A stretch of 64,000 bases of DNA, from contig JACPPA010000022.1 of NCBI GenBank assembly GCA_016191285.1, forward strand, positions 124,001 through 188,000, in the 5' to 3' direction. The translations under genes were made by a program, and so were the position numbers. The first letter of the stretch is position 1. Every line of letters starts with the position of its first letter. This DNA comes from Gammaproteobacteria bacterium. Lineage in GTDB: Bacteria; Pseudomonadota; Gammaproteobacteria; Ga0077536. This document shows, in pieces, positions 38,953 through 44,235 of this stretch. The notes under the pieces are model-generated. The model was not told where the DNA came from. It saw only the letters and a program-made list of their open reading frames with translations, and searched no databases.

Positions 38953-39630
38953 GTGACTGAGTTTCTCAAGTACCGGTTTCAGCGGCCAGAATTGCTCGCC
39001 CTGGCGTTGACGCATCGTAGCGCCGATGCCAGTAATAATGAGCGGTTAGAATTCCTCGGTGATGCTCTGATCGGCGCGGTGATCGCCGAGTTCCTCTATG
39101 CGCGGTTCCCGCACGCCGATGAAGGGCAGCTCACGCGGATCCGCGCCACCTTGGTCAACAAGGCGAGTCTGGCGACGCTGGCGCGACAGCTAAGCTTAGG
39201 GTCGCGACTGCGGCTGGGGGAGGGTGAACTGAAAAGTGGCGGATGGCGTCGCGATTCGATCCTGGCCAATGCTTTCGAGGCGCTCGTCGGGGCGATTTAT
39301 TTGGATGGCGGTCTTGACGAATGCCGGCGCGAAATCTTGGCCGTGTACGGCGTCCGCCTCGAACAGATCGATCCAGCGCTCGCGGTAAAGGACTCGAAGA
39401 CCGAATTGCAAGAATATTTGCAGAGTCGCCGACTGCCCCTCCCAATTTATTTAATGATTGCAATCGACGGGCCTCCGCACGACCAGACCTTTACCATTTC
39501 TTGTGACGTGAGTGGCTTGGCGGAGCCCGCCCAAGCCACGGCGCGCAGCCGGCGCCAAGCCGAACAAGAAGCGGCGCGCCTCGCGCTCCATGGATTACTA
39601 GGCGCCGACGACGGGCGCCGTACGTCATGA
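38953..39630 (+). CDS. rnc: Ribonuclease III
   Basis: This 225-residue enzyme cleaves double-stranded RNA in rRNA processing and mRNA turnover. The catalytic domain has the signature NERLEFLGD (E33, D37) and, at the second metal site, LANAFEAL, in which residue 106 is Asn where E. coli has Asp114 (ADTVEAL); the adjacent catalytic Glu (E109, E. coli E117) is kept. A C-terminal double-stranded RNA-binding domain follows (KTELQEYLQSRRLPLPIY). The start is GTG at 38953. The gene overlaps era by 4 bp, as in E. coli. Confidence 0.94.
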   Translation: MTEFLKYRFQRPELLALALTHRSADASNNERLEFLGDALIGAVIAEFLYARFPHADEGQLTRIRATLVNKASLATLARQLSLGSRLRLGEGELKSGGWRRDSILANAFEALVGAIYLDGGLDECRREILAVYGVRLEQIDPALAVKDSKTELQEYLQSRRLPLPIYLMIAIDGPPHDQTFTISCDVSGLAEPAQATARSRRQAEQEAARLALHGLLGADDGRRTS

Positions 39631-41328: not shown

Positions 41329-42069
41329 GTGACACTCTCTTCGAGCATTCAGTTAGGCGTGAACGTCGATCACATCGCGACCGTTCGCCAACAACGGCGC
41401 GGCCGCTTCCCGGATCCGGTCTACGCTGCACTCGTTGCCGAGCAAGCGGGAGCCGAGGGCATCACTGCCCACCTACGCGAGGATCGTCGCCACATTCAGG
41501 AGCGCGACGTCGAGCTGCTCAAGGACACACTCCAAACTCGGTTAAACCTTGAGATGGCGGCCACGCGACAAATGGTAAACATCGCACTCCGCGTACGGCC
41601 GGCGCATTGTTGTCTAGTGCCGGAACGGCGTGAAGAGCTGACGACCGAAGGCGGCTTGGAGGCAGCAGGTCAAGTGACGACACTCCACTCGGTTTGCGAC
41701 GAATTGACCGCAGCGGGGATCGTGGTCTCTCTTTTCATCGATCCCGAGCCCAGCCAAATCGAAGCTGCGAAAACACTTGGCGCCCCCTGCATTGAATTGC
41801 ATACGGGAGCGTATGCGGATACCACGGACCCGGCGGCGCGGCGGCGGGAGCACGCGCGACTCGCGCACGCCGCACAGTACGCGCATGCGCTCGGCCTGCA
41901 GGTAAACGCTGGACATGGCCTGACGCTCGACAACGTTCAAGCGATTGCGCAAATACCCGAAATCGTCGAGCTCAATATCGGCTACTCGATCGTCGCTCGC
42001 GCGCTATTTGTGGGACTTCCAGCGGCGGTAGCCGAAATGAAGCACGCGTTGGCGGCGGCTCGCGCATGA
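41329..42069 (+). CDS. pdxJ: Pyridoxine 5'-phosphate synthase
   Basis: This is a 246-residue TIM-barrel enzyme that joins deoxyxylulose phosphate and aminoacetone phosphate in vitamin B6 synthesis. Family sequences are [40 protein letters not shown], and [11 protein letters not shown]. The open frame begins far upstream within recO, but the family N-terminus and length indicate the GTG at 41329. The stop overlaps acpS by 4 bp. Confidence 0.94.
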
Positions 42070-42449
42070 TTACCGGACTCGGCATCGATATCGTGCAAGT
42101 CGAGCGAGTCGCGACGGTCTATCGGCGGTTTGGTCGCAAATTCGCGCGCCGCGTGCTCGCCGGCGATGAACTTGCGGCCTTCGATCGAAGCGCGGCGCCG
42201 GTGCGATTTTTAGCCATGCGTTTTGCCGCCAAGGAAGCGGTATCGAAAGCGCTTGGCACCGGTTTTCGTCACGGTGTTGCCCTACGCCTAATCGAAGTCG
42301 TCCACAACGCAGCGGGCAAACCCTCACTGCGGCTGCACGGCGAAGTCGCCAAACTCGCGACACTCCAGCAGGTCATGGCAACCCACGTCAGTCTGACCGA
42401 CGAACGCGACTATGCCGCCGCGGTCGTCGTCTTCGAATCGTTAAATTGA
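42066..42449 (+). CDS. acpS: Holo-[acyl-carrier-protein] synthase
   Basis: This 127-residue enzyme attaches phosphopantetheine to acyl carrier protein. The two signature motifs are [12 protein letters not shown] (residues 4-15) and [15 protein letters not shown] (about 55-69), containing the magnesium-binding Asp and Glu. It acts on AcpP, encoded 11 kb away in this window. It overlaps pdxJ (ATGA). Downstream, a mobile element now separates it from prfC. Confidence 0.95.
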
Positions 42450-42455
42450 ATTCCC

Positions 42456-42466
42456 ATGTCTGAGTT
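42456..42466 (+). repeat. Left target-site duplication carrying the old prfC start
   Basis: ATGTCTGAGTT, 7 bp after the acpS stop, is the original prfC start left in its native context. It now reads into the element and ends after ten codons (TGA at 42486-42488), so it should yield only a decapeptide. Confidence 0.8.
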
Positions 42467-42630
42467 GAATGGCACTTACTTGAGCTGAAATGCCGAGCAA
42501 GTTACGAAATTCCTTCACCACGTCATTCCTGCGCAAGCAGGAATCCAGTGAAACGATAGATTTATTGCACACTGGACCCCGTGTCGCAGCACGGGGTGAC
42601 GCATAAAATTGACCTAAGTAAGTGCCATTC
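42467..42630. mobile_element. 164-bp MITE inserted at the prfC start
   Basis: Perfect 15-bp terminal inverted repeats (GAATGGCACTTACTT at 42467-42481, reverse complement at 42616-42630) bound the element. It is flanked by an exact 11-bp direct repeat, ATGTCTGAGTT, at 42456-42466 and 42631-42641. This is a target-site duplication of the length made by IS4-family transposases. It has no coding capacity. Inside are two perfect hairpins: ATTCCTGC/GCAGGAAT (42525-42544, GCAA loop) and CCCCGTG/CACGGGG (42577-42596). A CCAGTG/CACTGG pair (42545-42550, 42570-42575) lies between them. The internal CATTCCTGCGCAAGCAGG-type hairpin resembles repeats scattered in many proteobacterial genomes. The transposase family is inferred from duplication length only. 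Confidence 0.85.
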
Positions 42631-42641
42631 ATGTCTGAGTT
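42631..42641 (+). repeat. Right target-site duplication carrying the working prfC start
   Basis: This second copy of ATGTCTGAGTT continues in frame into prfC and supplies its ATG and first codons. Sequence upstream of it is now the right inverted repeat of the element, with no strong Shine-Dalgarno sequence visible. Confidence 0.8.
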
Positions 42642-44235
42642 AAGTACCGCGATTAAAAAGCGGCGGACCTTCGCCATCGTCTCGCATCCGGATGCGGGCA
42701 AGACCACCGTCACCGAGAAACTATTGTTATTTGGCGGCGCGATCAATGCGGCCGGTACGGTAAAGGCGCGAAAGAGCGCGCGCTTTGCGACGTCGGATTG
42801 GATGGAAATCGAGCGTCAACGTGGCATCTCGGTGACGTCCTCGGTAATGCAGTTCGACTATCACGATTACGTGATCAATTTGCTGGATACCCCAGGTCAC
42901 GAGGATTTTTCGGAGGACACCTATCGCGTCCTCACGGCGGTCGATTCCGTGTTGATGGTGATCGATGCCGCAAAAGGCGTCGAAGAGCGCACCATCAAAC
43001 TATTGGACGTTTGTCGGTTACGTAAAACGCCAATCGTCACGTTTATCAATAAGCTTGATCGCTACAGTCGGCCGCCGCTGGATCTAATCGACGAAGTGGA
43101 GAGCGTGTTAAAAATTAAATGCGCCCCAGTCACGTGGCCGCTTGGTTCCGGTCAGCACTTTGCCGGCGTCTATCATTTTGACCACGGGCATTTAGTTCAA
43201 TATCAGCGTGAAATTGACGCAAATGCCGCGGCACTTGAATCTGTGACACTGGCCTTGGATTCGCCGCAAGCGAACTTCGTATTTGGCGATCAACTGAATG
43301 AACTGCGTGACGAAATCTCGTTGGTCGACGGCGCCGGGACCCGTTTCAATCATGAGGCCTACCGCGCGGGAACCCTAACGCCCGTATTTTTTGGTTCGGC
43401 GCTGCAGAATTTCGGGATCCGAGAAATGCTCGACTACTTTGTAGAGATCGCACCACCTCCGCAATTTCGGGCCGCGTACGAGCGCAATGTCAGCGCGGAA
43501 GAAGAAACTTTCAGCGGATTTGTGTTTAAGATTCAAGCGAACATGGATCCACAACATCGCGATCGGATCGCCTTCATGCGGATCTGTTCGGGGCGCTTCA
43601 CACCCGGCATGCGGTTGCGGCATGTGCGGCTCGGTCGTGAGATTCAAGTCGCCAACGCGCTGACTTTTTTTGCGCGCGGTCGCGAACAGGTCGCTGATGC
43701 CTATGCGGGCGACATCATTGGGCTTCACAACCACGGCACCATTCAGATTGGCGATACCTTCACCGCCGGTGAACGGCTAACCTTTCAAGGGATCCCAAGC
43801 TTCGCGCCTGAACTTTTCAAGCGCGTACGAGCGACGGATCCCCTGCGCGCCAAGGCGTTACTGAAAGGACTCACTGAGCTCGGCGAGGAGGGCGCCGCGC
43901 AGGTATTTCGATTGGTCAATCGTAACGAATTGGTGTTGGGTGCAATCGGCACCCTGCAGTTCGACGTGGTCGCCTACCGTCTAAAACACGAGTACGGCGT
44001 TGAATGCCTGTTTGAACCGATAGCGACCCAAGTCGCCCGCTGGGTGTCCAGCACGAGTCCCAAGGAACTCGAAAAATTTTCGCGCCAAGTCGGCGATAAT
44101 TTCGCGCTCGATGGGGGCGGGAATCCGACTTACCTGGCCCCCACCCGCATCAATCTGCAACTCACGATCGAACGCTGGCCGGAACTTGAGTTTCATGCCA
44201 CGCGCGAAGTCGGTCTGCGCCAAGACTCGCTTTAA
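42631..44235 (+). CDS. prfC: Peptide chain release factor 3
   Basis: This 534-residue translational GTPase recycles RF1/RF2 after termination. It has the P-loop SHPDAGKTT (about residues 18-26), [28 protein letters not shown] and the NKLDR specificity motif, followed by the RF3-type C-terminal domains. I use the ATG at 42631 inside the right target duplication. A GTG at 42622 in the element would add three residues. The protein looks intact, but its translation signals come from the inserted element. It ends tail to tail with rne, with a 4-bp overlap. Confidence 0.95.

Follow-up and report, generated by a model that had tools for sequence, protein, structure and literature searches.

The locus analysed here raises a simple question: how can a mobile element come to lie exactly on the start codon of a gene without breaking it, and does its presence affect the expression of this gene? 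The gene is prfC, encoding RF3. The window, that is, the whole stretch of 64,000 nucleotides that was analysed, covers positions 124001-188000 of contig C31 in a draft genome of 5.1 Mb and 60 contigs (the host genome below). The most probable answer to the first part, to which we assign a probability of about 0.85, is that an IS4-subgroup MITE was inserted at the prfC start and that its 11-bp target duplication regenerated the start codon.

The original prediction, made from the sequence of the window, described a 164-bp element with perfect 15-bp inverted repeats, flanked by an 11-bp direct repeat identical to the first 11 bases of an intact prfC gene, with the left copy of the start opening a 10-codon frame. 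All these features were recovered at the predicted positions (Table 1), and ATGTCTGAGTT is present on both sides of the element. Read outward, the direct repeat covers 12 identical bases, CATGTCTGAGTT (42455-42466 and 42630-42641). The outer C also equals the last base of the element, and the duplication is therefore 11 bp if the element ends in GAATGG, like most of its relatives. The distance between acpS and prfC before the insertion had been given as 7 nt, whereas 6 nt (ATTCCC, 42450-42455) separate the acpS stop codon from the left copy of the prfC start. The predicted coupling of the two genes is likely, given this short native gap and the gaps of 9-12 nt in congeners.

Table 1. Features of the acpS-prfC junction and the autonomous IS with the same ends
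Feature	Coordinates	Strand	Evidence
acpS (holo-ACP synthase), upstream gene	42066-42449	+	TIGR00516, 127 bits, cut-off 59.8
Left copy of the target duplication (11 bp, ATGTCTGAGTT), at the original start of prfC	42456-42466	+	sequence
ORF1, 10-codon frame MSELNGTYLS from the duplicated ATG (predicted)	42456-42488	+	spans the whole left TIR arm, UGA stop
164-bp MITE	42467-42630	+	TIRs, direct repeat, fold, genome copies
Left TIR, 15 bp, GAATGGCACTTACTT	42467-42481	+	exact match
ORF2, 38-codon frame	42490-42606	+	begins 1 nt past the ORF1 stop, ends 24 nt before prfC
Right TIR, 15 bp, GAATGGCACTTACTT	42616-42630	-	exact match
Right copy of ATGTCTGAGTT, present prfC start	42631-42641	+	sequence
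prfC (RF3), 534 aa, intact	42631-44235	+	NF001964, 832 bits; TIGR00503, 778 bits
Autonomous IS of a same-family genome (G006)	G006 C12:6419-7924		1506 bp; 11-bp duplication GGGTCAGGTTT; identical 15-bp TIRs

The two TIRs are the sole matches to GAATGGCACTTACTT in the window at up to three mismatches. The chance expectation at three mismatches is already 0.9, and thus it is the exactness and the pairing of the repeats that carry weight. Folded as single-stranded DNA, the element has z = -6.8, and none of 200 shuffled sequences folds equally well. Its length and its TIRs, identical at 15 of 15 positions, together with the lack of a transposase gene, agree with the usual description of MITEs (50-500 bp). 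The longest plus-strand frame within the element has 38 amino acids. This frame, ORF2, was set aside as a conserved product, as the sibling copies compared show other frames; judging from these sequences, it is probably incidental. On the minus strand a 101-codon open frame (42441-42746) crosses the element and both flanks. The right TIR contains a GTG codon at 42622, in frame with prfC, that is an alternative start. A few genes upstream of the MITE and on the same strand, the ORF at 38953-39630 looks by eye like rnc (RNase III), a proximity that would be of interest if the TIR stem described below were an RNase III substrate.

The element belongs to a multicopy family. A search of the host genome for elements with these ends and a transposase, suggested along with the original prediction, was successful in its first half: 44 BLAST matches to the element were found at E <= 0.001, but no transposase with these TIRs. 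At E <= 1, with 40 of the 86 first-look candidates scored, there are at least 53 matches, which are not 53 separate copies, since matches to the TIR only and to half of the element are counted in. The TIR at up to two mismatches occurs 68 times in the host genome, against 3 + 3 = 6 occurrences of the reversed control. In the loci fetched, we searched for paired TIRs whose flanking duplications agree at 8 or more of their 11 bases. This test was passed by 23 elements (11/11 in 11 of them, 10/11 in six, 9/11 in six), including smaller and larger variants of 123-404 bp. Among the near-full-length BLAST copies, 13 out of 18 passed and five did not (L003, L009, L010, L021, L022). The 44 matches and 23 paired copies thus form the set of dispersed copies with target duplications expected of a MITE. 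Of the 23 elements, the window copy alone has TIRs identical at 15/15 positions. However, the nearest full-length sibling is 81% identical, and therefore the perfect ends alone do not prove a very recent insertion; for the same reason, no donor copy is seen.

One more TIR pair, 1425 bp long with 9/11 matching ends (L014, contig C53), was dropped from the counts because its two ends belong to different MITE copies of a dense cluster. Its interior contains no frame longer than 115 codons and no YREK pattern. The dense cluster of complete and partial copies on this contig occupies about 7 kb (C53:156657-163978), and a short ORF between two of its copies resembles by eye a minimal nucleotidyltransferase.

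Another copy (L227, C23:14000-17000 of the host genome) is split by a group II intron of 1847 bp. The halves of the element lie at 455-564 and 2412-2466 of this locus and the intron at 565-2411; positions 1-110 and 111-165 of sibling copies align to its two sides. The intron starts with GTGCG directly after an internal hairpin of the element, a match to Rfam RF00029 (53.9 bits) ends exactly at 2411, and the intron ORF passes the TIGR04416 model of group II reverse transcriptases/maturases (342 bits, cut-off 300). Class C group II introns seek hairpins, and the hairpins of MITEs may offer such introns a place to land. Related ends occur in a congener as well (G003, e.g. loci L219-L223), which has 33 TIR matches and five complete elements of 183-215 bp with 9-10 of 11 matching duplication bases. 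These elements have no match to the window MITE at E <= 0.001: the ends are shared and the filling is different.

The family assignment relies on the ends, the duplication and an autonomous partner. According to a study of the IS4 family (PMC2266710), the family is characterised by a single-ORF transposase with the motifs D(60-110)D(100-150)E and Y(2)R(3)E(6)K, and the IS4 subgroup by ends -AATR--------WTW, a length of 1400-1650 bp and duplications of 10-13 bp. The window element fits the subgroup in its ends and its duplication. When 57 genomes were scanned for the TIR, a pair 1506 bp apart was found in the same-family genome G006. The sequence between these TIRs is occupied by a single ORF, 485 codons from stop to stop, whose product scores 221 bits with NF033592 transpos_IS4_1 (cut-off 115) and 73 bits with PF01609 (cut-off 23). 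The DDE spacers are 78 and 107, the Y(2)R(3)E(6)K motif is present as YRSRWHVELDLRNIK, and the ends of the IS are GAATGGCACTTACTTA. In its ends, length, 11-bp duplication, DDE and YREK motifs this IS is like the IS4 subgroup, and through it the MITE shares its TIRs with an autonomous IS. By contrast, the window element has no transposase, and only its ends are common to the IS. It is thus a non-autonomous derivative rather than an IS itself.

Two plasmids carry ISs with the same 15-bp ends. The transposase of the Pseudomonas veronii IS is 66% identical to that of G006; the two flanks of this IS do not match each other, and the strict YREK pattern was not matched in its longest frame. In the Acidovorax carolinensis IS the transposase is 53% identical, and there is a 10-bp repeat at the ends. 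A plasmid of Aeromonas caviae contains the left IS end only, within the stretch fetched. All three ISs with these ends (G006, P. veronii, A. carolinensis) share with the MITE just 15-19 bp per end. The G006 IS is thus a candidate source of the IS4-family transposase that, according to the original prediction, would have mobilised the element in trans.

No such helper was found at home. A search of 36 genomes with the G006 transposase gave matches in G006 only, at two places, and the host genome and five congeners have no protein match at E <= 1e-10. The curated IS4 model matches the host genome at four places, one of them above the cut-off of 115 and none intact. An IS4-family transposase at C31:195396-196274 (220 bits) has an internal stop and a tail about 0.9 kb apart, and the match at C24:37431-37769 is partial and under the cut-off. 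None of the eight PF01609 loci of the host genome, these two remnants included, is surrounded by paired MITE-type TIRs at up to four mismatches. A resident helper was therefore rejected, as the IS4-family remnants were neither intact nor found with MITE TIRs. The helper may have been lost, may be unassembled in a gap of the draft, may never have been resident, or may be a remnant acting on foreign ends.

Several other transposase remains were seen. The broken transposase on C31 extends over 194259-196274 (L092, L242). It is an IS4-family transposase of another kind, lies outside the window on the same contig, about 30 kb from the MITE, and has no MITE-type TIRs around it. G006 contains a second, truncated IS4-type transposase (L122, C54, near 36107), 65% identical to the first one over 156 aligned residues; it adjoins an ORF resembling by eye an IS3-type transposase and is probably an IS interrupted by another IS. 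In G044, TIRs lie about 90-126 bp from the starts of contigs C51, C108, C128 and C131, positions that fit a repeated IS breaking the assembly. A G006-type transposase was not found in G044 by protein search.

The acpS-prfC junction was compared in relatives found via PrfC at E <= 1e-120. Loci were obtained for 30 of the 42 matching genomes, one of them being the host genome. In 20 of the 29 relatives acpS lies directly upstream of prfC; their gaps range from -7 to 93 nt, and none contains an insert. For the other nine, the fetched stretch lacks acpS and is uninformative on the insert. The empty site, anticipated by the original prediction, is present in all five congeners (gaps of 9, 9, 11, 12 and 12 nt), whose PrfC proteins are 76-78% identical to that of the window. 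As the junction is empty in the 20 relatives with acpS, the insertion is private to the host genome among the sampled genomes. Instead of a single-copy sequence held at this place at all phylogenetic depths, which would have spoken against a mobile element, we find empty junctions and a multicopy family. Judging from these comparisons, the insertion took place after the host lineage had separated from the congeners sampled. To that extent it is dateable, as had been proposed; finer dating is weakened by the low identity to the nearest sibling.

The description of prfC as a gene of an essential pathway does not agree with its distribution. At E <= 1e-120 it was matched in 42 out of 58 genomes and not found in 16. 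Among good-quality genomes (completeness of 90% or more, contamination of 5% or less) it was matched in 36 of 43; three of the seven genomes without a match belong to the same family as the host genome. This patchy distribution, together with the likely coupling to acpS, could be taken to mean that the insertion uncoupled prfC from acpS and largely silenced it, and that the gene is heading for loss, which is tolerated as RF3 is dispensable. We regard such an outcome as unlikely, because the prfC frame is intact, its scores with the models are those of a full-length protein, and there is no sign of decay.

The choice of the target site was studied with 29 rebuilt sites: 23 from the host genome, five from the congener G003 and that of the G006 IS. 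The 11-mers have C at position 5 and G at position 7 (88% in the two-strand average), the left arm is A-rich and the right arm is T-rich. The motif N3-Y-C-N-G-R-N3 was named after the sites were inspected. Of the 29 targets, 14 match it in both halves and 27 in one half or both; the corresponding shares of flanking 11-mers are 1.7% and 24%. ATGTCTGAGTT matches both halves, and thus the prfC start is a good target by its sequence. In the proposed sequence of events, a non-autonomous miniature IS4-subgroup element would have been mobilised in trans by an IS4-type transposase. A staggered cut of 11 bp would have been made at ATG/TCTGA/GTT, with which prfC begins at its 6-nt junction with acpS, and repair of this cut would have copied the 11 bases. 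Such copying would restore the RF3 reading frame exactly.

An 11-bp duplication can enclose an ATG in nine positions, all of which keep the gene whole. Assuming 4,500 genes, one expects 0.18 start-regenerating insertions per 23 copies or 0.42 per 53 matches. Among the 21 complete copies examined, the window copy alone has an outward ORF (100 codons or more) that begins inside the duplication. With these expectations, the placement on the start codon is not far from what chance and selection would give. These figures suit a functionally neutral insertion, in which prfC would be translated as before, without a Shine-Dalgarno box, from its ATG or from the GTG at 42622, the hairpin would seldom form on a translated and co-transcribed message, and the location would reflect chance and selection against gene-breaking inserts. 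This reading is a serious one, although we place it a little short of even odds.

The translation signals also agree with it. Scored over 20 nt against an assumed 16S tail, the native prfC start has a Shine-Dalgarno score of +0.4 kcal/mol and the present one -0.9, in a range from +0.6 to -10.3 for 28 hand-picked starts of the window, prfC included. The native start is without a Shine-Dalgarno box, and the new one has barely any. Hence the suggestion that the insertion had moved away the native ribosome-binding context fails, as no such box was there to lose. No Rfam matches at E <= 1 were found in 42300-42800. An outward terminator in the element was considered and rejected, the one terminator-like site being on the other strand inside prfC.

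The dependence of prfC on the sequence of the element, also part of the original prediction, has two sides. As regards transcription, an outward promoter within the element might now drive prfC, and several MITEs do carry outward promoters, according to PMC10969869. However, no sigma-70-type promoter-like sites occur in 42350-42760, and we consider this explanation very improbable. As regards translation, the dependence is plausible through the predicted structure of the RNA. In the predicted fold the TIRs pair as a 17-bp stem (42466-42482 with 42615-42631) that closes a branched structure and includes the A of the prfC AUG; the whole stretch has z = -6.2. Opening of the region from -15 to +16 of prfC would cost 17.5 kcal/mol with the insert and 6.4 kcal/mol at the joined empty site in the final set-up (16.5-17.6 and 5.9-6.7 kcal/mol, respectively, across the contexts with both TIR arms). 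The value with the insert exceeds that of 20 out of 22 hand-picked plus-strand starts of the window. This rise by about 11 kcal/mol speaks against a neutral insertion.

The predicted penalty depends on the left TIR arm. When this arm is shuffled (n = 20), the opening cost is 6.9 kcal/mol on average. With an upstream context of 120 nt, and likewise of 150 nt, the penalty vanishes, because the stretch that is folded then leaves out all or nearly all of the left arm; thus the penalty is due to the long-range pairing of the TIRs alone. The computed cost falls to 6.8 kcal/mol when a ribosome occupies the left arm and to 6.6 when it stands at the ORF1 stop, whereas ribosomes at the ORF2 stop (15.4 kcal/mol) or at the acpS stop (17.0) give no relief.

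These calculations suggest the following model. On the acpS-prfC mRNA the TIRs would pair and close the prfC initiation region. Ribosomes coming from acpS would translate the 10-codon ORF1 from the duplicated ATG, 6 nt past the acpS stop, and a ribosome on ORF1 would unpair the left TIR arm, making the prfC start accessible again. The output of prfC would be somewhat lower and more dependent on the translation of acpS, and the insert could be tolerated because coupling to acpS continues via a small leader cistron. That the hairpin and the ORF1 leader matter in the cell is a tentative proposal, which we hold at about one chance in three on the strength of the modelled folds; a neutral insertion is about as likely as persisting leader coupling. 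Translating ribosomes may prevent the pairing of the TIRs. Conservation provides no argument for function, the insert being present in one genome.

The leader model allows for an extension. The gene encodes RF3 and the leader ends in UGA, and so a feedback through slow termination can be imagined. If RF3 were scarce, termination or factor release at the ORF1 UGA would be slow, the ribosome would stay on the left arm, the hairpin would be open (6.6 against 17.5 kcal/mol), and prfC would be made. The negative-feedback logic would be comparable to that of the RF2 programmed frameshift. That one transposition event built such a termination-sensing translational attenuator on prfC is, for a construct drawn from a model, highly unlikely.

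The same stem could act at the level of mRNA processing. Stems of roughly 20 bp are usually quoted for RNase III substrates. The predicted 17-bp TIR stem, shorter than that, might nevertheless be an RNase III site that parts the acpS and prfC messages, as in the Correia/NEMIS elements, given the z-score of the stretch and the transcript cleavage at Correia TIRs described in PMC10969869. On the modelled structure we give this possibility a low rank.

Compared with known systems, the element itself is of a familiar kind. Correia/NEMIS elements of Neisseria have different TIRs and short TA-type duplications. The window MITE differs from them in its TIRs and in that a sigma-70-like site was not found in it; it is like them in the predicted TIR stem in the mRNA, the position near a gene start and the possible effect on the neighbouring message (PMC10969869 and PMC2229807). 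In Type II MITEs the likeness to ISs is confined to the TIRs (PMC10969869), and the window element agrees with this type in its size, TIRs, duplications, multicopy state and TIR-only match to an IS. What sets the window copy apart is its exact placement on a start codon, which its insertion regenerated. The prfC junction resembles leader-peptide attenuators, since a short upstream frame is predicted to cross the stem arm masking the next start; it differs from them in being a prediction, in having been made in one transposition step, and in having no known signal. A literature search by title and beginning of the abstract found, among the papers listed, no equal case of start-codon regeneration by a target duplication, which does not imply absence from print, and no case of MITE-made leaders or of RF3 autoregulation.

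The locus is thus a good test case, in its placement and its predicted hairpin and leader, and not a new system. It is a clean natural example of a mobile element that entered a narrow operon junction, right at a start codon, and left the gene unbroken: the start is regenerated by the target duplication, a hairpin comes with the inverted repeats, and the surplus start opens a leader cistron. The persistence of a MITE family in a genome where no matching intact transposase was found bears on the survival of MITEs beyond their helpers. If the predicted effect of the hairpin and leader is true, MITE insertions of this kind would give rise to translational attenuators in a single step.
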